The notes under the pieces were generated by a model that did no database searches, was not told the DNA's origin, and saw nothing but the letters and a program-made list of their open reading frames with translations. 7,718 nt of DNA from Acidobacteriaceae bacterium (GTDB taxonomy: Bacteria; Acidobacteriota; Terriglobia; Terriglobales; Acidobacteriaceae), in the NCBI GenBank assembly GCA_009781125.1, contig WQYS01000103.1, forward strand, positions 1 through 7,718, written 5' to 3'. Positions 1,441 to 7,718 of the stretch are shown here, in pieces. A program made the translations under genes and the position numbers. The stretch's first letter is position 1; each line of letters opens with the position of its first letter.

Positions 1441-2778
1441 ATGGCCGATCCACCGATCCCAGGAGGCGGCTCAATAGCCTCTTTGGCCTATTTTGCTAAT
1501 GCCCTCGTCAGCGCCTACAACGGATACGCGCAAAGAAAACTGCAGCGGGAAGAGGGAGCGGAAAACCGACAACTCACCCGCCAGTTGGAGACAGACAGAC
1601 AGAATTTTCAAATTGATCTGTTTTACAAGAACGCCCAACTGCAGCAGCGTCTTGTTGACCGCCACCATGAGCTGGCTTTGCTGGAGATTCAGGAAAACTT
1701 TGACAACACCTGCAAGACAATCGAGTGGCAGCTTTTTCTGCAGAAATGGCCTCTGTTGGTACTGCCCAGCGTGCTGCGGAGCAAGCAGATTCTTCCTGAC
1801 CACACGACCTGCCTACGGGTTCTGTTTCTTCACAGCAACGATATGACGTCCGGTACCAACATCTATCCGCGCGTAGAGCAAGGATTGAAAGAGTTTGTGG
1901 ATGACTATGCCAACGAGTTCAGTTCGAAACATATCCTTTTTGAGCACAATGCCTTCACTAGCCCAGTGTATGGTGGCGCTTTGGAGACCAACATTTATCA
2001 CGCACTGAAAGATCTGCCCGTTGTCATTATTAGCGCGAACGTGGTGGACGACGAAATCAATCTGTCCCTGAAAATGTGGGGACTCGGTGATAATCAGCCA
2101 AAACAAGCCACCGTATTCAAAATGCCCTATGAGCGGAAAACGGTGAACGGCAAGCCCGATATGGAATACTGCCGGGCGATTGCCGACCAGATGCTCTCAT
2201 ATCTAAAGTTCATCCTGGGCTATGTTTATGATGCCTATAATCTGATCCAGTACGACCAGGGGCCTCTGTTGCCCTCCGTTGCCCGATTTGAGCTGGCGCA
2301 GGGGCGCAAAGGTTGCGTGCTGCAGATGCCCAATATCGACGAGGAGATCCGCGCTAAGTATACGGAGATGTTTTCTTTGCTGAGCGTTTTGTCCAGTGTG
2401 AACGAGAATAAGCGGATCGTGCAGCCTTACACACAGCTCCGATTTGCCGTCGCCATGAAGGAACAGATTCTGACCGGAAGCTACTTTTCCATGTTGCACG
2501 AGTCCTTGCGGGCGTGGACAGCCCTCAGGTCGGATCAGGATGCTCTACCGTTCTTGACGTTGTTGGCCAATGATCCGAATCTGGTGCCTCGCTACTGTTC
2601 TACGGCCGACGAGCAATATCTTCAAGAGTTGTCTTTTGAGATGGGGACGTGCGAGGTTGAGTCAGCGCTTACCTATGTCGACAGCATAGGGAAAATATTG
2701 CACCATTTCAAAGAACTGACCGCGGTCAGCGTATCCAGCCAGCCTGAGATATCGGGTCCAACCGTTTTTGATCTATAG
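1441..2778 (+). CDS. Unknown 445-aa protein: N-terminal coiled coil, central alpha/beta domain, C-terminal VFDL tail
   Basis: I do not recognise a named family. Residues 11-30 form a mildly hydrophobic helix. Residues 30-90 are rich in Gln, Glu, Leu and Arg and look like a long coiled coil, suited to oligomerisation. Residues 124-230 have the rhythm of an alternating alpha/beta fold: strand LRVLFLH (125-131), an amphipathic helix (144-160), strand HILFEH (164-169), a conserved-looking GGALETNI helix (178-185), strand PVVIISA (193-199) and strand ATVF (223-226). A SEFIR/TIR-like or other Rossmann-type fold is possible, but I see no decisive catalytic residue. Residues 250-425 look mainly helical. 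The last 20 residues are Ser/Pro rich and end in TVFDL, almost the same ending as the next gene. The TTG at 1267 would add 58 residues but has a poor ribosome site. The stop lies 23 nt before the GTPase ATG, so co-transcription is likely. A sensor, adaptor or effector of the neighbouring GTPases is plausible (inference). Confidence 0.8.
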   Translation: MADPPIPGGGSIASLAYFANALVSAYNGYAQRKLQREEGAENRQLTRQLETDRQNFQIDLFYKNAQLQQRLVDRHHELALLEIQENFDNTCKTIEWQLFLQKWPLLVLPSVLRSKQILPDHTTCLRVLFLHSNDMTSGTNIYPRVEQGLKEFVDDYANEFSSKHILFEHNAFTSPVYGGALETNIYHALKDLPVVIISANVVDDEINLSLKMWGLGDNQPKQATVFKMPYERKTVNGKPDMEYCRAIADQMLSYLKFILGYVYDAYNLIQYDQGPLLPSVARFELAQGRKGCVLQMPNIDEEIRAKYTEMFSLLSVLSSVNENKRIVQPYTQLRFAVAMKEQILTGSYFSMLHESLRAWTALRSDQDALPFLTLLANDPNLVPRYCSTADEQYLQELSFEMGTCEVESALTYVDSIGKILHHFKELTAVSVSSQPEISGPTVFDL

Positions 2779-2801
2779 GATCAGGATGGGTGTTGGGCAC
2801 C

Positions 2802-3740
2802 ATGAAGATACTCATGTTGGGCTATAGAGACGCCGGTAAGACGACCTATATGGCTAGCGCCTATGGAATGTTGAAGCGCGGCGTTAAAGGCTTCTATGTG
2901 AAGGGAAGCGACGACGACGACAGTTGGCTATCGGGTCTGTATCAATCCATCTGCCAGGGTCGCTATCCTCTCCTCACGGACAAGCGTGGCACCTTCAAAA
3001 TGGATCTGTATTATTATGCCAAGCTGGTTCTTCCATTTGAGTGGGTGGATTATTACGGAGGCGTTATCACCGAAGAAAAATCCGCTCAACTGCTTACGGA
3101 TATGGATGAATCGGACGGCCTAATGATGTTCTTTGAGGCACCTGCGCTGGTGAATGGCAACGAAAATGTCACTCAACTACGGCGTATGCTATATCTGGTT
3201 GCCAAGAAGCTTATTACCCTTCAGGATTATTTCACCGTCATTGTTGTACTCACGAAATGCGATCTGTTGAGTCCAGGCATCTCTGTTGACGAAGCAAGCG
3301 CGGCTCTGTCCAAGTTTGTCTCCAGCGCGGACGGCAACGAGAAAATATATCTGCGCGTGGTGCCCGTTTCTTGTACGGCTCGCGGCTTTGCCAATGTGGA
3401 TCTGCCGCTGCTGGATATCTTGGACAGCGGGTTGCAGATCAGTTGCTTGCAGATTGCGCAGAAAGTCCAACAAGCTGCGGTGGAAGCCGTTGAGCGCGCA
3501 AGTAACATAGGTTTCTTTGACTGGGCCTTCAGCCGTATCGCCGGCGTTGAAACCAACGGAGAAATAGCGACAAGGCGGGCAAAAGAAGCCAATGAACAGT
3601 TGGATCTGTTCCAATCACTGAAGACGCCCATGGAGGAGCTCTCGGAATATGTCTCTTCGTATCAGGTGCAACTGCCGGAATCGATGGCGCCACCCAATGA
3701 TAAGCAGCATGTCCATGCCAGCTCTGTCTTTGATATATGA
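2802..3740 (+). CDS. P-loop GTPase of the TRAFAC / double-GTPase (DO-GTPase) type, first of the pair
   Basis: A 312-aa protein with all GTPase landmarks. The P-loop GYRDAGKT is at residues 7-14 right at the N-terminus. Switch II/Walker B is W-V-D-Y-Y-G-G (D83, G86). TKCD (151-154) stands for the guanine-specifying NKxD motif. VPVSCTA (188-193) resembles the G5 loop. The combination of an N-terminal GKTTYM P-loop and a DYxGG switch resembles the DO-GTPase proteins that bioinformatic work by the Aravind group placed in predicted NTP-dependent conflict systems, where two such GTPases are encoded side by side (from memory, not searched). Residues 214-285 are helical. The C-terminus is a flexible stretch ending in SSVFDI, like the preceding protein. 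The start is ambiguous: ATG 2802 places the P-loop strand at the N-terminus as usual, while GTG 2790 would add four residues and lies 3 nt from an AGGA. The paralogue downstream supports a GTPase heterodimer. GTP binding is secure; the biological role is inferred. Confidence 0.85.
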   Translation: MKILMLGYRDAGKTTYMASAYGMLKRGVKGFYVKGSDDDDSWLSGLYQSICQGRYPLLTDKRGTFKMDLYYYAKLVLPFEWVDYYGGVITEEKSAQLLTDMDESDGLMMFFEAPALVNGNENVTQLRRMLYLVAKKLITLQDYFTVIVVLTKCDLLSPGISVDEASAALSKFVSSADGNEKIYLRVVPVSCTARGFANVDLPLLDILDSGLQISCLQIAQKVQQAAVEAVERASNIGFFDWAFSRIAGVETNGEIATRRAKEANEQLDLFQSLKTPMEELSEYVSSYQVQLPESMAPPNDKQHVHASSVFDI

Positions 3741-3827
3741 AAAGTCGCCCCTGCGAGGCTATATCTGCAGTTATGGCGAGCATATGTCAAGAAGCATATA
3801 AACCTAGTTACATAGAAAGGCAAAAGA
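3741..3827 (+). promoter_or_regulatory. Intergenic gap with a weak internal promoter candidate
   Basis: This 87-nt gap is the largest inside the cassette. TATAAA (3797-3802) is a fair -10 element. The -35 position 17 bp upstream (TGGCGA, 3774-3779) matches only three of six bases. The hexamer GCATAT occurs twice, 14 nt apart, around it. An internal promoter for the second GTPase and downstream genes is possible but weakly supported. AGAAAGG (3814-3820), 7 nt before ATG 3828, is the ribosome site of the next gene. Confidence 0.25.
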
Positions 3828-4853
3828 ATGGCGAACAAGAAGGTCACCGTTATCGGGTCTACGGGTTCCGGGAAAACCTGTTACCTGGCTGGGATGTACT
3901 CCTTGATGAGTGTAGGCGTCAAGAACTTCAATGTGGTGGCTGTGGACGATTCCCAAAATTTCAACCTGATCCGTCTGTGGTCTGGCATGGATAAGGGTAG
4001 CAATAGAACGATGCCCGCACCTAGTGATCAGAAAGATCCGTATACTTTCAACCTGAGCCACTGCTTTATTCCCATTTGCGATTTCGATTGGCTGGACTAT
4101 GCGGGCGCCGCTCTGCTGGATCCCTCGATGGGTTTGATTGACGAGATCAATGAGAGTATCCACTCTTCCAGTTGTCTGCTCGTTCTGGTGGACGGAACCT
4201 TTTTCAACGTAAATACGACGACACCGGAGGAATACCGCAGCGCTGTGCTCAGAAATCTTAAAAACCCAGGCTTGAGCGCGGAGATTTCACGTCTGAGCAG
4301 TCTTGCGTCCAAGGGGATCCATTTGCCGCCCATCATCATCGTGATCACCAAGAGCGACTTGATACCCCAAGAGAGGGCGTCTCAGCTGGAAGATATCTTG
4401 TTTGAGGCGTTCGGCAGCATTTTCGGAAAGGACAGCAACGCAGGTAAAGGTAGCAATCCCGACCGAGTGGTCATGATCGTCGCTGTCAGTCTAGGTGTTG
4501 GTTTTGCCGACGGCAGCGATATGGATCCGAGAAATTTTGAGCAACCCATCGGCTACGCGGTGCTGGCGATCCTTTGCAATCACATCGCTCCCTTGTACAT
4601 CCGAGCCATTCATGAGAATCAAGGTGAGATCAAGAAACACACGAATCTCTTGACAAAATGGTGGTACAGCGGAGAGATCGCCGCTGCCAATCAGAATCTG
4701 GCGGAGCTGAAAGAGCTGGCCGACAAGATTTCCCATGATGTGTTCAGGCTGTTGGATCTATTCCCGGAAAAGAAGAATGTATATGTCAATGGCAATCGCA
4801 AAGACATCCACGGCTATTTCCGGGACGTGCTGAGAAGTCTGTTTTCGGTTTGA
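3828..4853 (+). CDS. P-loop GTPase of the TRAFAC / double-GTPase (DO-GTPase) type, second of the pair
   Basis: A 341-aa paralogue of the upstream GTPase. The P-loop GSTGSGKT is at residues 10-17, followed by CYLAGMY. Switch II is W-L-D-Y-A-G-A (D90, G93), the G4 motif is TKSD (174-177) after a hydrophobic strand IIIVI, and the G5-like loop is VAVSLG (218-223). The stretches after the P-loop align between the two proteins (both have G-V-K-x-F about 14 residues on), so they share a fold and origin. This copy has a longer loop between P-loop and switch II and a longer insert before G4. The last 90 residues are helical, with a Lys/Glu-rich segment (265-305). It does not carry the VFD[I/L] tail of the other GTPase and ends in SLFSV. 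The start is well fixed by AGAAAGG 7 nt upstream. Adjacency suggests that the two form a heteromeric switch, as proposed for DO-GTPase pairs (family knowledge plus inference). Confidence 0.85.
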   Translation: MANKKVTVIGSTGSGKTCYLAGMYSLMSVGVKNFNVVAVDDSQNFNLIRLWSGMDKGSNRTMPAPSDQKDPYTFNLSHCFIPICDFDWLDYAGAALLDPSMGLIDEINESIHSSSCLLVLVDGTFFNVNTTTPEEYRSAVLRNLKNPGLSAEISRLSSLASKGIHLPPIIIVITKSDLIPQERASQLEDILFEAFGSIFGKDSNAGKGSNPDRVVMIVAVSLGVGFADGSDMDPRNFEQPIGYAVLAILCNHIAPLYIRAIHENQGEIKKHTNLLTKWWYSGEIAAANQNLAELKELADKISHDVFRLLDLFPEKKNVYVNGNRKDIHGYFRDVLRSLFSV

Positions 4854-4866
4854 AAGGCGATTTTTG

Positions 4867-5859
4867 ATGTTAGTGAGCCCTGTGATTCATTGCAGAACAT
4901 ATCAGATCGATTTCCGCAGTGTCCCGCTGTTCTTGCCTGGCGATATAGACGCCGCGTTTTTGATGCGCAATTGCCATGCCAGCACCTGGCAGATGATGGA
5001 CCGGCAAATCCGGCATGTCGTATTTGCCGCGCCCGACCATATTGTTCTAGGTATCGTCACAACTATAGAGCAACTGTTCCAAATCTGCGGCAGGACACCG
5101 ATCCCGGAATACTGCCATGTGGACAAGCCGGACGGGAGATACGCGTGTGGGTTTATCGGCGCTTCCATCCTAACGAGTTCCATACAAGCGGACCAGATCA
5201 CTATCCCATCGCCCGCGGACTTTTTGGATATTTACCTGAAATATATCCCCAGTCGCTGGAATGAGCAGTATTCCGATGGTGAAAAGGTCTGGAGTTCGAT
5301 GTTGGTTGAGTATGCTGAAACCGTGTTCTCAACCAGGTTTTCGGAAGAAAACCTGTTGAATCTGCCGGTGGATGGTAAGGGCTTCTATCATAAGAGCACA
5401 CCGGAGTTTGATTGGCTAGCGTTTCAATCTGCGGCCTATCTATCCATCAAAGAAGGGATGCAGGTTTCGCTGTGTACCGACGCCACATTCTCGGGCATAC
5501 AGCAGGGTAGCTTTTTGCTTTATACGCTTGCGGACGCCCCCGATAACGGCTGGATCTCCTACGAAAAGCGTATGCCGGAAATCCGTAAAGAACCCGTCGC
5601 GCAGAAGCCTCACAAAAGTGCAGCCGATCGATCCTTTCAAGACGCGGATCATGGTCCGTCAACGTACGAGGAGCGAATTGCCGCGCTGGCACCGTCAAAC
5701 AGTCGAAAAACAAGGTTGCTGTCCAGGCTAAAGAGGCGGGATCTGGATGTACGGACCTTTGAGAGTGCACAGGAACAAGTGGACGATCACGCGGAAGGCC
5801 GTCACCTGAAGAAGTGTAAAAAACGGTTGCCATTACAAATCAATCGAAAAGGAGATTGA
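4867..5859 (+). CDS. Unknown 330-aa protein, paralogue of the next gene, with basic C-terminal tail
   Basis: I do not recognise a family, but this protein and the next are homologous along most of their length. Shared blocks are VIHxRT...DFR (residues 6-17 here), a VxG...L...CG.xP strand-helix block (about 60-80), VD...GR.A..FIG (85-98), a LDIYxKY...RW.E block (120-133), a segment around A-Y-L...V-S-L-C-T-D (190-205) and TYEERIxxLxP (267-276). The invariant DFR, GRxAxxFIG and RW.E residues suggest a conserved domain of about 150 residues followed by a second alpha/beta unit. After TYEERI it diverges into a Lys/Arg-rich tail (278-330) without membrane segments, which may bind acidic partners or nucleic acid. 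No catalytic motif was seen. ATG 4867 is preferred over TTG 4864; AAAGG at 4853-4857 sits 9 nt upstream. The gap to the GTPase stop is only 13 nt, so it is operonic. Confidence 0.8.
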   Translation: MLVSPVIHCRTYQIDFRSVPLFLPGDIDAAFLMRNCHASTWQMMDRQIRHVVFAAPDHIVLGIVTTIEQLFQICGRTPIPEYCHVDKPDGRYACGFIGASILTSSIQADQITIPSPADFLDIYLKYIPSRWNEQYSDGEKVWSSMLVEYAETVFSTRFSEENLLNLPVDGKGFYHKSTPEFDWLAFQSAAYLSIKEGMQVSLCTDATFSGIQQGSFLLYTLADAPDNGWISYEKRMPEIRKEPVAQKPHKSAADRSFQDADHGPSTYEERIAALAPSNSRKTRLLSRLKRRDLDVRTFESAQEQVDDHAEGRHLKKCKKRLPLQINRKGD

Positions 5860-5863
5860 CCGT

Positions 5864-6907
5864 ATGATAGTTTCCTATGCGCCGGTAATTCATGCGAGAA
5901 CGCAATACGTCGATTTTCGCTACGACCTGGTGGCGGCACCGGAGGGCTTCACACCGGAGGACACCAACTGGGCCAGGACACTCATTCTGAACAGCACCCG
6001 GTTTATGGATCAATGTGATTCGTCCGGGCGCCGGGTGGTTTTCGGCAACGGCTCCGTCTGTGTCACTGGCCTCACCATCCGAGTAAAAGATCTGTACCTG
6101 CGGTGCGGAATCGAGCCCAGGTACTACAAGGTGGACGAAAATGAAGGCCGGGAAGCGTATGTTTTTATTGGAATGGCCGTTCGGGTTGACCCGTCAGCGC
6201 AGGCCTTTGACGTTCCTGAGCGCACATTATTGGATGTCTATGAAAAGTATGTTGTTCCACGCTGGCACGAGACAATAGGGGATGAGCACTGTTTTCGTCA
6301 GACGAGCGTACCCTATGCGCAGATTGACGTACCGGCCGCGGGAACGCCGCTTTCCCTCGACACTTATACGCCGGCGCGCGGTGGCAAGGTGGTCTTGAGC
6401 ACAGCCGACAATGAGCGTGATCAAGTGGCTGCTGGCGTTCTGGCTAGCGCACTTCAAGGCCAAAAGATCGCCTTTTGTTCTGATATGCCTAACGCAACCA
6501 GTGTTTTGGAAAGCCAGTTCGACTTGGTCACAACCCCCAACGCCGAGAGCATCCTGAGGGAAATAGCACGCAGAACAGGCGATGCGCAAGACGGCGGTTC
6601 GGAGGGATCGGGCAAGACAACGCCAGGCGTCAACCCGCGTGCGCAGACTTATGAAGAGCGTATTAGACGGCTGTCCCCACCCGGCGACCGTACAGGCCAC
6701 GGTGCGAGCGGTGTTAATGAGCCCCATGGGCTCACTGCCGGAGATATTGGCCTCGGGGTTGCCGGTATCGCGGGCGTGGCATTTACAGTAATCGGGCTGG
6801 TTAGCTCTGCCAATCCGATTCTGCTTGCGACAGTCGGCGCTCTTACGGTGGTCTTCGTCGGGGTGGAAGCCAAAAGAATACTGGATCAAATAAATGAAAC
6901 GAGGTAA
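5864..6907 (+). CDS. Unknown 347-aa protein, paralogue of the previous gene, with C-terminal transmembrane hairpin
   Basis: It shares the architecture of its upstream neighbour: VIHARTxxxDFR (residues 8-19), VTGL...L..CGIEP (67-84), VDENEGREAYVFIG (90-103), LLDVYEKYVVPRWHE (122-136), a second unit (about 175-235) with K-I-A-F-C-S-D, and TYEERIRRLSP (262-272). A Gly/Ser/Thr-rich disordered linker lies at 240-262. Unlike the paralogue it ends in two hydrophobic helices (about 296-314 and 318-335) separated by the short turn SSANP, then a charged end. This is a hairpin anchor or a possible membrane-perturbing module. With no signal peptide, the N-terminal domains are expected in the cytoplasm. 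AAGGAG (5849-5854), 9 nt before the ATG and inside the end of the previous gene, is the best ribosome site of the cassette, and the gap is only 4 nt. The pair may form a heteromer that tethers the system to the membrane (inference). No known family is assigned. Confidence 0.82.
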   Translation: MIVSYAPVIHARTQYVDFRYDLVAAPEGFTPEDTNWARTLILNSTRFMDQCDSSGRRVVFGNGSVCVTGLTIRVKDLYLRCGIEPRYYKVDENEGREAYVFIGMAVRVDPSAQAFDVPERTLLDVYEKYVVPRWHETIGDEHCFRQTSVPYAQIDVPAAGTPLSLDTYTPARGGKVVLSTADNERDQVAAGVLASALQGQKIAFCSDMPNATSVLESQFDLVTTPNAESILREIARRTGDAQDGGSEGSGKTTPGVNPRAQTYEERIRRLSPPGDRTGHGASGVNEPHGLTAGDIGLGVAGIAGVAFTVIGLVSSANPILLATVGALTVVFVGVEAKRILDQINETR

Positions 6908-6912
6908 TTCCA

Positions 6913-7662
6913 ATGCATGATCCGACATTTTTTGCACAAGACGACGCGTCTTTCTCGCATAACGCGTCCTTTTCATACGACGCGCCTCTCGTCGGTGGAT
7001 TAGTCGGCAGTGACGTTTTCCATTCGCCGGAATATCTGGCCCTTCAAGACGGGGTCGCATTAAAAGAGATCACGCCTCATCTGATCGACAGCTTGGCAGA
7101 AACGATGATGGGGGCTTTCGGGATGCATGGCGTCGAAGTGATCCAGGACTATGGCGAATTCAACGCGGGCATGCAACCGGGCAGCGATGCTGTGCTTAGT
7201 TATGATCCGAATTTTCTCTGGTCCATGGGGCAGCAATTCGGCCCGGACGCCATTGTAGGCATAGTCGCCCACGAAGTGGGGCACCATATAGCCGACAACT
7301 ATTTGAGTGCCGACGCCACATCCTTAGATCGCGAACAGTGCGCCGATTGCATATCTGGAGTTCTAACAAGGATGTATGGCCTGTCTCCTGACGCCATGGA
7401 CGGATTCTATGCCAACATGATTGTTGCCGTGGGCGGAGATGATCACCCATTGGGCGGTATCCGGTCTGACGCCTTCCATCAGGGGTATGACTGGGCGTCT
7501 GACGAGCGGAATCAGGTCTTTTCCCACTTCTTGCTTCAGGACCCTCAGAATCTTGCCCAGATGCTGGCAGAAAACTTGCACATGTCTGACCAGGCTGTTC
7601 TATCCACGCTTCCCGACGGGAGCACGGTCGGCGAACATAGTCCCGTTCTTGGAGTGGGGTGA
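6913..7662 (+). CDS. Cytoplasmic zinc metallopeptidase (HExxH), YpfJ-like neutral zinc peptidase type
   Basis: A 249-aa protein with the zinc motif HEVGHH at residues 120-125 (ligands H120 and H124, catalytic E121). It is followed by E-Q-C-A-D-C (141-146), where E141 and D145 fit the ExxxD third-ligand arrangement of gluzincins. The pattern HExGHH ... ExxADCxxGV, followed by GDDHPxGxxR and AFxxGY (175-192), resembles the neutral zinc metallopeptidases related to YpfJ and more distantly M48-type enzymes. Unlike the membrane-anchored YpfJ, no signal peptide or membrane helix is present, so it should act in the cytoplasm. The N-terminus is unusual: a short imperfect repeat D-A-S-F-S-H-N / A-S-F-S-Y-D (residues 11-23), possibly a prodomain-like or docking segment. 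GAGG at 6901-6904, overlapping the previous stop region, is the ribosome site, with 8 nt to ATG 6913. In context it is the likeliest effector or maturation protease of the GTPase module (inference). The catalytic assignment is firm; the substrate is unknown. Confidence 0.85.
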   Translation: MHDPTFFAQDDASFSHNASFSYDAPLVGGLVGSDVFHSPEYLALQDGVALKEITPHLIDSLAETMMGAFGMHGVEVIQDYGEFNAGMQPGSDAVLSYDPNFLWSMGQQFGPDAIVGIVAHEVGHHIADNYLSADATSLDREQCADCISGVLTRMYGLSPDAMDGFYANMIVAVGGDDHPLGGIRSDAFHQGYDWASDERNQVFSHFLLQDPQNLAQMLAENLHMSDQAVLSTLPDGSTVGEHSPVLGVG

Positions 7663-7672
7663 CGATAAGGCG

Positions 7673-7718
7673 ATGCGACATGCCAAGGCGGGACAAACTC
7701 AAGCCGCCATCGGTTTGA
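7673..7718 (+). CDS. Possible start of a further gene (partial, 3' end outside window)
   Basis: ATG 7673 opens a frame that is still open at the window end (15 complete codons, MRHAKAGQTQ and on). AAGG (7667-7670) is only 2 nt from the ATG, too close for a good ribosome site. The same bases also hold inverted segments (CGATG 7671-7675 with CATCG 7708-7712, and GCGG 7688-7691 with CCGC 7704-7707), so the stretch could instead be a structured 3' end of the operon. No U-tract is visible before the window closes. Confidence 0.2.
   Translation, partial: MRHAKAGQTQAAIGL

Follow-up and report, generated by a model that had tools for sequence, protein, structure and literature searches.

The GTPase-centred systems described for bacteria are defined by a DO-GTPase together with a GAP1 protein, with GASH or FNIII proteins as partners (Kaur et al. 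2020; PMC7159879, accessible part). According to the same part of that article, GAP1-N2 systems, too, have Hsp70 as a partner and GTPase-centric systems are nearly absent from cyanobacteria; the words longin, roadblock, TagF, C39, EF-hand and dynamin do not occur in its main text. A DO-GTPase family protein whose operons also encode NtrC-like regulators and PspF was called membrane-stress related in the available part of the report (PMC11237479). Here we analysed a six-gene cassette, g1 to g6, on a stretch of 7,718 nucleotides (nt) from an Acidobacteriaceae bacterium. This whole stretch, which ends 56 bases past g6, is referred to as the window. The cassette encodes a pair of DO-GTPase-like proteins, termed GTPase A (g2) and GTPase B (g3), and two members of a protein family with a predicted longin-like fold (g4 and g5). 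GTPase A, GTPase B and the g4/g5 family form a recurring core, which spans Bacillota, Actinomycetota and Cyanobacteriota. Our reading, to which we give an even chance of being correct, is that we are dealing with one form of a modular GTP switch that is anchored in the membrane, works with exchangeable effectors and is probably directed against invaders. We regard the module as a GAP1-less variant of the DO-GTPase systems; the GTPase family and the logic are common to both. Like these systems it has paired GTPases of one family, mobile neighbourhoods, membrane links and variable effector genes, with an Hsp70 ATPase domain in some loci. It differs from them in that matches to GAP1, GASH and FNIII are absent and a longin-like family is present instead, in that its GTPases lack the glutamate after the DxxG motif, in its presence on cyanobacterial plasmids and in its shared C-terminal tails.

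Fourteen loci were compared, namely the window, L001 to L005 and the plasmids L018 to L020, which were found with g3, and L036 to L040, which were found with a profile of the longin-like family. Because the loci had been fetched by one core gene, it is the presence of the other core genes that counts. GTPase A, GTPase B and a longin gene occurred together in 13 of the 14 loci; the exceptions concern GTPase A, which is degenerate in L039 and has no clear representative in L040. Homologues of g1, g2, g3 and the g4/g5 family are found in the same order in other genomes, and the operon is therefore beyond chance. The sequence-only reading had treated all six genes as a conserved unit. A survey of the neighbourhoods in distant genomes recovered the core but not the full set, as g6 was found at none of the other loci searched and g1 is exchanged for Hsp70 in four loci. 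That the g4/g5 pair belongs to the conserved core is new beyond that reading. The module is real and conserved; its mechanism we infer below. It is apparently undescribed, and the gene set was not found in print in a search of the open literature, with most subscription journals outside its range.

The search with g3 returned at least 13 proteins among 5.8 billion, g3 itself included. The search with g1 gave at least five proteins and that with g5 at least four (with scoring restricted to the 7996 candidates that had the most words in common); these two counts are lower bounds, since the searches missed proteins of L001 to L003 that were part of their own query alignments. Within the family of the genome G001 (Anaeromicropila), which we take to be the Lachnospiraceae of the phylum Bacillota, g1 had a match in 2 of 397 genomes, G001 itself and G383. 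The weak hit in G383 (E 4.5e-4) was set aside because the GTPase B profile A1 matched nothing in this genome. With the longin profile, G005 was the single match among 396 genomes of its phylum, and a match was obtained in six of 200 genomes of its family, presumably the Micromonosporaceae (G005 included). A phage origin of the module was considered and rejected: no relatives were found in viral contigs with three profiles and pattern-based scans, none in phage records with g2 and the longin domain, and matches to PHROGs had E 0.02 or worse.

Both GTPase A (g2; 2790–3740, + strand, 316 amino acids) and GTPase B (g3; 3828–4853, + strand, 341 amino acids) score above the cut-off of 27 bits of the DO-GTPase2 family PF19993, although marginally, by about 2 bits (29.3 and 28.8 bits, respectively). 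The G1, G3 and G4 motifs read GYRDAGKT, WVDYYGGV and TKCD in g2, and GSTGSGKT, WLDYAGAA and TKSD in g3. The start of g2 is probably ATG 2802 rather than GTG 2790, because the homologues of g2 begin at this later ATG. In an unrooted tree of 26 sequences, from which the GTPases of L039 and L040 were excluded, A and B were split by one branch with a support of 100/100, and Bacillota, Actinomycetota and Cyanobacteriota were all present on both sides. The motifs and this branch bear out the earlier proposal of two paralogous P-loop GTPases, and the profile confirms, narrowly, that they are DO-GTPase-like. When three other DO-GTPases were added, their long branches blurred the picture, A requiring two changes and B one; we therefore make no claim on the attachment point of those DO-GTPases.

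None of 25 GTPases of the module has a glutamate following DxxG. This set comprises 24 sequences matched by script (W-x-D-Y-x-G, or W-x-D-H-x-G in GTPase A of L005) and GTPase A of L003, which reads WLDYYGGV. In L036 to L038, GTPase B reads VDFRGG. By comparison, the glutamate is present in three of four other DO-GTPase2 matches from the genomes G002 and G005 (DLSGE in two, DLPGE in one), which are encoded on contig 26 of G002 and contig 36 of G005; the exception is L010 of G005, reading DYAGD. A conserved glutamate in the Walker B region is a feature of the DO-GTPases of Kaur et al. (2020), one that the GTPases of the module do not share if, as is our own reading, it is equated with the glutamate after DxxG. 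The DYAGD sequence belongs to a membrane-fused GTPase of Actinoplanes (L010:58-2655), which may connect the two types of GTPase.

The proteins encoded by g4 (4864–5859, + strand, 331 amino acids) and g5 (5864–6907, + strand, 347 amino acids) are paralogues, and neither exceeds the cut-off of any Pfam family. A hydrophobic hairpin of two helices (residues 295–313 and 318–336) is found at the C-terminus of g5 and is absent from g4, so that the earlier description of two paralogous proteins, one of them with a membrane hairpin, holds. For the N-terminal domain of g5 (about residues 1–244) a longin-like fold is predicted, and the g4/g5 family would accordingly share the predicted fold of the GTPase-binding platforms of eukaryotes and Asgard archaea. 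The top Foldseek match of g5 is TagF of type VI secretion (9t0n, E 4.3e-5, prob 1.00). No type VI gene was recognised in the window, and g5 has no sequence likeness to TagF chains or solved longins; only two perforin entries appeared, with E 0.55 and 0.65. That other folds are missing from the VIA structure lists is uninformative. Across the three phyla, the profiles of the longin family match each other with hhalign P values of 1.2e-30, 1e-21 and 2.2e-6. Hairpins were called with a simple hydropathy scan. Each of the five loci with two longin genes (the window, L003, Anabaena, Calothrix and Geminocystis) has exactly one copy with a hairpin, a pattern consistent with a platform of which one half is anchored and the other soluble. 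Among the loci in which one copy was seen, a hairpin was called in L001 and none in L002, L004, L005, L036, L037, L039 and L040; L004 ends soon after its longin copy, and the incomplete longin of L038 was not counted.

The first position of the cassette, slot 1, is occupied in the window by g1 (1441–2778, + strand, 445 amino acids), which consists of a long coiled coil, an alpha/beta middle and a helical C-terminus ending in VFDL. Its AlphaFold2 (AF2) model is of moderate confidence (pLDDT 75.8) and places the coiled-coil helix at residues 12–102; no Pfam family was matched over cut-off. Homologues of g1 are present in L001, L002 and L004 and are also represented by P0015 to P0018. L005 (Actinoplanes) encodes at 8608–9981 a protein of g1-like place, size and layout whose similarity to g1 is not significant (hhalign P 0.18, hmmsearch E 0.12), and L003 has no g1. 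In L018, L036, L037 and L038 an Hsp70 ATPase domain fills slot 1. In L018 (Anabaena) it lacks a substrate domain, is encoded first in the run and is separated from GTPase A by a longin gene; in the other three loci a gene of this kind immediately precedes GTPase A. A large TPR protein is encoded upstream of the Hsp70 gene of L037 (L037:11588-14944, − strand) and recalls the TPR gene by the Hsp70 gene of Calothrix. The Calothrix plasmid carries an Hsp70 family gene, a TPR gene and a dynamin gene, of which Hsp70 and dynamin lie outside the core run.

The last gene, g6 (6913–7662, + strand, 249 amino acids), occupies a variable effector position and encodes a putative HExxH zinc peptidase. The motif HEVGHH is found at residue 120 and EQCADC at residue 141, 21 residues on, and the protein has no hydrophobic segment. 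To this extent the proposed cytoplasmic peptidase stands, although its scores to zinc-peptidase families are all below the cut-offs (PF04228, E 0.026, 14.4 bits versus 23.2; YpfJ family NF050010, 16.3 bits versus 250). No relatives of g6 were found in L001 to L020 or L036 to L040.

At other loci, the neighbours of which were scanned in part, different genes accompany the core. A C39-like peptidase gene lies beside it in two phyla, in L018 (L018:10570-11391) and in L002 (L002:6697-7536). Repeats of the DxDxDG type were seen by eye in both proteins; the Pfam EF-hand match is below cut-off in L002 and missing in L018. In L001 the core is directly followed by genes for an EF-hand protein and a radical SAM protein (L001:12221-14100), which resemble a peptide-modifying pair. 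Dynamin pairs are present in L018, L036, L037 and L038, and all eight genes match Dynamin_N. Directly behind the pair of L036 lies a gene for a secreted-looking subtilase with a P-domain (L036:12328-14559), which may or may not belong to the locus. Upstream of the core, two loci from genomes of the G005 family encode N-terminally alike proteins (L036:2612-3682 and L038:1840-2766, both − strand) without a Pfam match to E 0.001. A CHAT-domain gene is located upstream in Anabaena. The Calothrix locus encodes on the opposite strand (L019:5809-10678, − strand) a zinc-ribbon coiled-coil protein with a tail, a double CbbX-like AAA protein (by eye) and a coiled-coil protein; the Hsp70 family gene and the TPR gene come after this set on the plasmid.

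A feature not contained in the sequence-only reading is that proteins of one locus share C-terminal tails. The ends of g1 and GTPase A are VFDL and VFDI in the window, YIEL and LIEL in L001, FIDL and FIDL in L002, and VFSI and IFAL in L004, where the longin gene product also ends in IFSI. Among the 24 permutations of these four loci the true pairing of g1 and GTPase A had the top score; L005 (g1 LDDD, GTPase A IEIF) and L036 to L040 were omitted from this comparison. The tail pairs had p values of 1.5e-5 to 0.0018 against random tetrapeptides and scored 12 to 20, compared with a maximum of 10 among 300 pairs of neighbouring C-termini. On the Anabaena plasmid pANA01, 4 of 89 genes end in WF, and these encode Hsp70, both longin proteins and GTPase A; the chance that all four fall within the five-gene core run with Hsp70 is 2e-6. 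On the Calothrix plasmid pCAL6303.02 the end W-x-[LIF] is found in 3 of 48 genes, two of them in the core and the third adjacent; the carriers are the second copy of GTPase A, a longin protein and the zinc-ribbon coiled-coil protein of the other strand. We read the tails as docking signals; alternatively, they may serve protease targeting. Several observations weigh against a general role of the tails. No tail pair of Geminocystis passes p 0.02, no clear tail is seen on g4 and g5 of the window or on the proteins of L005 and L036 to L040, and GTPase B is without a tail, its end in the window, LFSV, being only a weak likeness.

The surroundings of the module were compared with models of known defence systems. 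Ten neighbours were picked by hand, and for eight of them a PADLOC model was matched with an E of at most 1e-5. L002 lies behind matches to MkoB (E 1.1e-78) and MkoA (9.1e-14), of the system MkoABC, which we take to be Mokosh; L001 adjoins a Cas6 gene and a recombinase gene; and an AAA gene of L020 matches PDC-M37B and DolB. Matches to LeoA and LeoBC (E 2.1e-26 to 8.7e-8), LeoABC presumably being Eleos, were obtained for the dynamins of L018 and L036. Unlike in that system, the dynamins are accessory to some loci of the module, and none is present in the window as far as it reaches. No PADLOC match was obtained for the Hsp70 of L018 or the dynamin-like protein of L040. Of the proteins of the cassette, g3 alone matched PADLOC-DB 2.0.0 to E 1; four models were hit by its N-terminal P-loop region, none with an E below 0.03. 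It is because defence genes lie beside several loci that we favour an anti-invader reading, and a defence role of the module may be proposed.

In the mechanism that we envisage, g2 and g3 would be partners and likely form a heterodimer, as suggested by their constant pairing and apparently old duplication. They would sit on a longin-like platform with g4 as the soluble part and g5 held at the membrane by its hairpin. From the predicted fold and the synteny, this platform could set or read the nucleotide state of the GTPases in the manner of roadblock/longin dimers that act on small GTPases in other systems. The slot 1 protein, g1 or elsewhere the Hsp70 ATPase domain, may be a sensor or an assembly subunit. 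Through their locus-specific tails, g1 and GTPase A, and at other loci longin proteins, Hsp70 or the zinc-ribbon protein, might dock on a common hub, for which GTPase B, with no clear tail at the loci inspected, is a candidate. In response to a trigger, which might be an attack by phage or damage to the membrane, the switch would release the co-encoded effector, namely g6 in the window and a C39 peptidase or a dynamin pair elsewhere.

The steering of GTPase pairs by longin and roadblock proteins is mostly treated in the context of eukaryotes and Asgard archaea, and the Rag GTPases are likewise two paralogous GTPases. With the Rag/Gtr heterodimers and their partners Ragulator and GATOR, and with the Asgard GTPase–longin proteins, the module has in common a paralogous GTPase pair, putative platform proteins of the longin/roadblock type and fold matches. 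It differs in that its GTPases are DO-GTPase-like, in that g5 has no sequence likeness to solved longins, and in being operon-encoded with bacterial effectors. Tentatively, and with more doubt than expectation, the module may be seen as a bacterial counterpart of Rag–Ragulator, in which a GTPase heterodimer sits on a membrane-anchored longin heterodimer with a locus-specific C-terminal peptide code and exchangeable immune effectors, having arisen in or spread among Bacillota, Actinomycetota and Cyanobacteriota. According to the accessible part of a recent article, roadblock/longin dimers serve as GTPase platforms, and MglA/MglB combines a bacterial GTPase with a roadblock-fold partner acting as exchange factor and activating protein (GEF/GAP) (PMC10933270). 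The pair of Myxococcus resembles the module as a bacterial GTPase with a platform-type partner protein; it differs in having a single GTPase and a roadblock rather than a longin-like protein, in its role in polarity and in lacking an effector cassette.

Three other explanations were weighed against the switch with exchangeable effectors. The module could be an ordinary DO-GTPase/GAP1 system in which GAP1 has diverged, g4/g5 or g1 being its pieces, or in which the GAP1 gene lies past the window end. Both GTPases exceed the DO-GTPase2 cut-off, Hsp70 is a partner of GAP1-N2 systems too (PMC7159879, accessible part), and in the window itself the test extends no further than 56 bases past g6. Nevertheless, when the six proteins of the cassette and ten from related loci were compared with Pfam to E 1, no GAP1 family was matched, nor was GASH or FNIII by any of the six; within the window the absence of a GAP1-like gene noted earlier is thus borne out. 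The longin profile compared with a GAP1-N2 profile of five sequences (L035, which has no clear domain start, was dropped) gave P 0.3, or 0.099 with the roles swapped, whereas the longin profiles of different phyla match one another at 1e-30 to 1e-6. Homology of g5 to GAP1 was also rejected for want of a signal (P 0.62 to 0.98 with a single GAP1 sequence, 0.34 with an untrimmed alignment). Some hosts do have GAP1 genes, GAP1-N2 in three of ten genomes (G005, G886 and G959) and GAP1-N1 in one of eight (G002). These are far from the core, on contig 36 of G005, contig 26 of G002 and contig 2 of G959, and about 3 megabases (Mb) away in G886; no GAP1-N1 or GAP1-N2 gene was found at the core locus in the searched host genomes, GAP1-C not having been searched in genomes. 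Because GAP1 is missing at the core and lies elsewhere in those hosts that have it, the module is not a GAP1 system, and the lack of the glutamate after DxxG (none of 25, against three of four other DO-GTPase2 matches) points the same way. We consider this explanation highly improbable.

A regulator of membrane stress or trafficking, serving polarity, envelope or thylakoid upkeep instead of defence, could use the platform for sending dynamins, chaperones and proteases to damaged membrane. The dynamin pairs, the membrane hairpin and Hsp70 would suit such a role, as would the DO-GTPase protein called membrane-stress related in PspF/NtrC-like operons (PMC11237479, available part). However, the presence of the module is scattered (g1 in 1 of 397 genomes of the G001 family, longin in 6 of 200 of the G005 family), and its carriage on plasmids and its defence neighbours resemble an accessory conflict module; we think such a regulator unlikely. 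Proteolysis could also be the main output, with the tails as peptidase substrates or targeting signals. In this regard the window encodes an HExxH peptidase, L002 and Anabaena, two phyla apart, a C39-like peptidase, and the CHAT-domain gene of Anabaena and the secreted subtilase behind the L036 dynamins can be added. Yet g6 was found once and the peptidases belong to unrelated families. The partly scanned neighbours of the core include no recognised peptidase in L001, L003 and Calothrix (L004 ends early), and L001 and Calothrix have tails without a recognised peptidase. A protease-centred system is therefore strongly doubted. The sequence-only reading had proposed that a GTP switch controls proteolysis near the membrane. 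The association of the module with proteases and membrane anchoring holds, but other loci carry different genes in place of g6, and because of this variation the proposal can apply at most to the window, to the two C39 loci and perhaps to L036.

If the switch with exchangeable effectors is correct, it would provide a small bacterial test system for longin-steered GTPase pairs in which protease, chaperone and dynamin parts can be exchanged. The GTPase-centred conflict systems would gain a branch without GAP1 that extends to cyanobacterial plasmids, and a role could be assigned to the families of g1 and g4/g5. The tails predict one docking partner per locus and should be swappable between parts of a locus, not between loci. 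The case for greater novelty would follow if the longin platform and the tail code were proved.

As to the window itself, the six open reading frames (ORFs) predicted beforehand were recovered at the same coordinates, all on the + strand and with zero internal stops. The gaps from g1 to g6 are 11, 87, 10, 4 and 5 nt, so that the description of six co-directional and mostly tightly spaced genes was accurate. The database copy of g1 has 503 amino acids, as if started at TTG 1267; ATG 1441 has the better ribosome site and agrees with the homologues. A further ORF may begin at ATG 7673 (7673–7718, + strand) and is open at the window end. Since the longest contig in the database record of g5 has 12757 bases, more genes may follow g6. 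The GC content is 0.58 in the flank (1–1000) and 0.52 in the cassette. Upstream of the cassette, at 189–773 on the − strand, lies a gene for a transmembrane protein matching Ferric_reduct (Pfam), with a weak match to MsrQ, which as far as seen is unrelated to the cassette.

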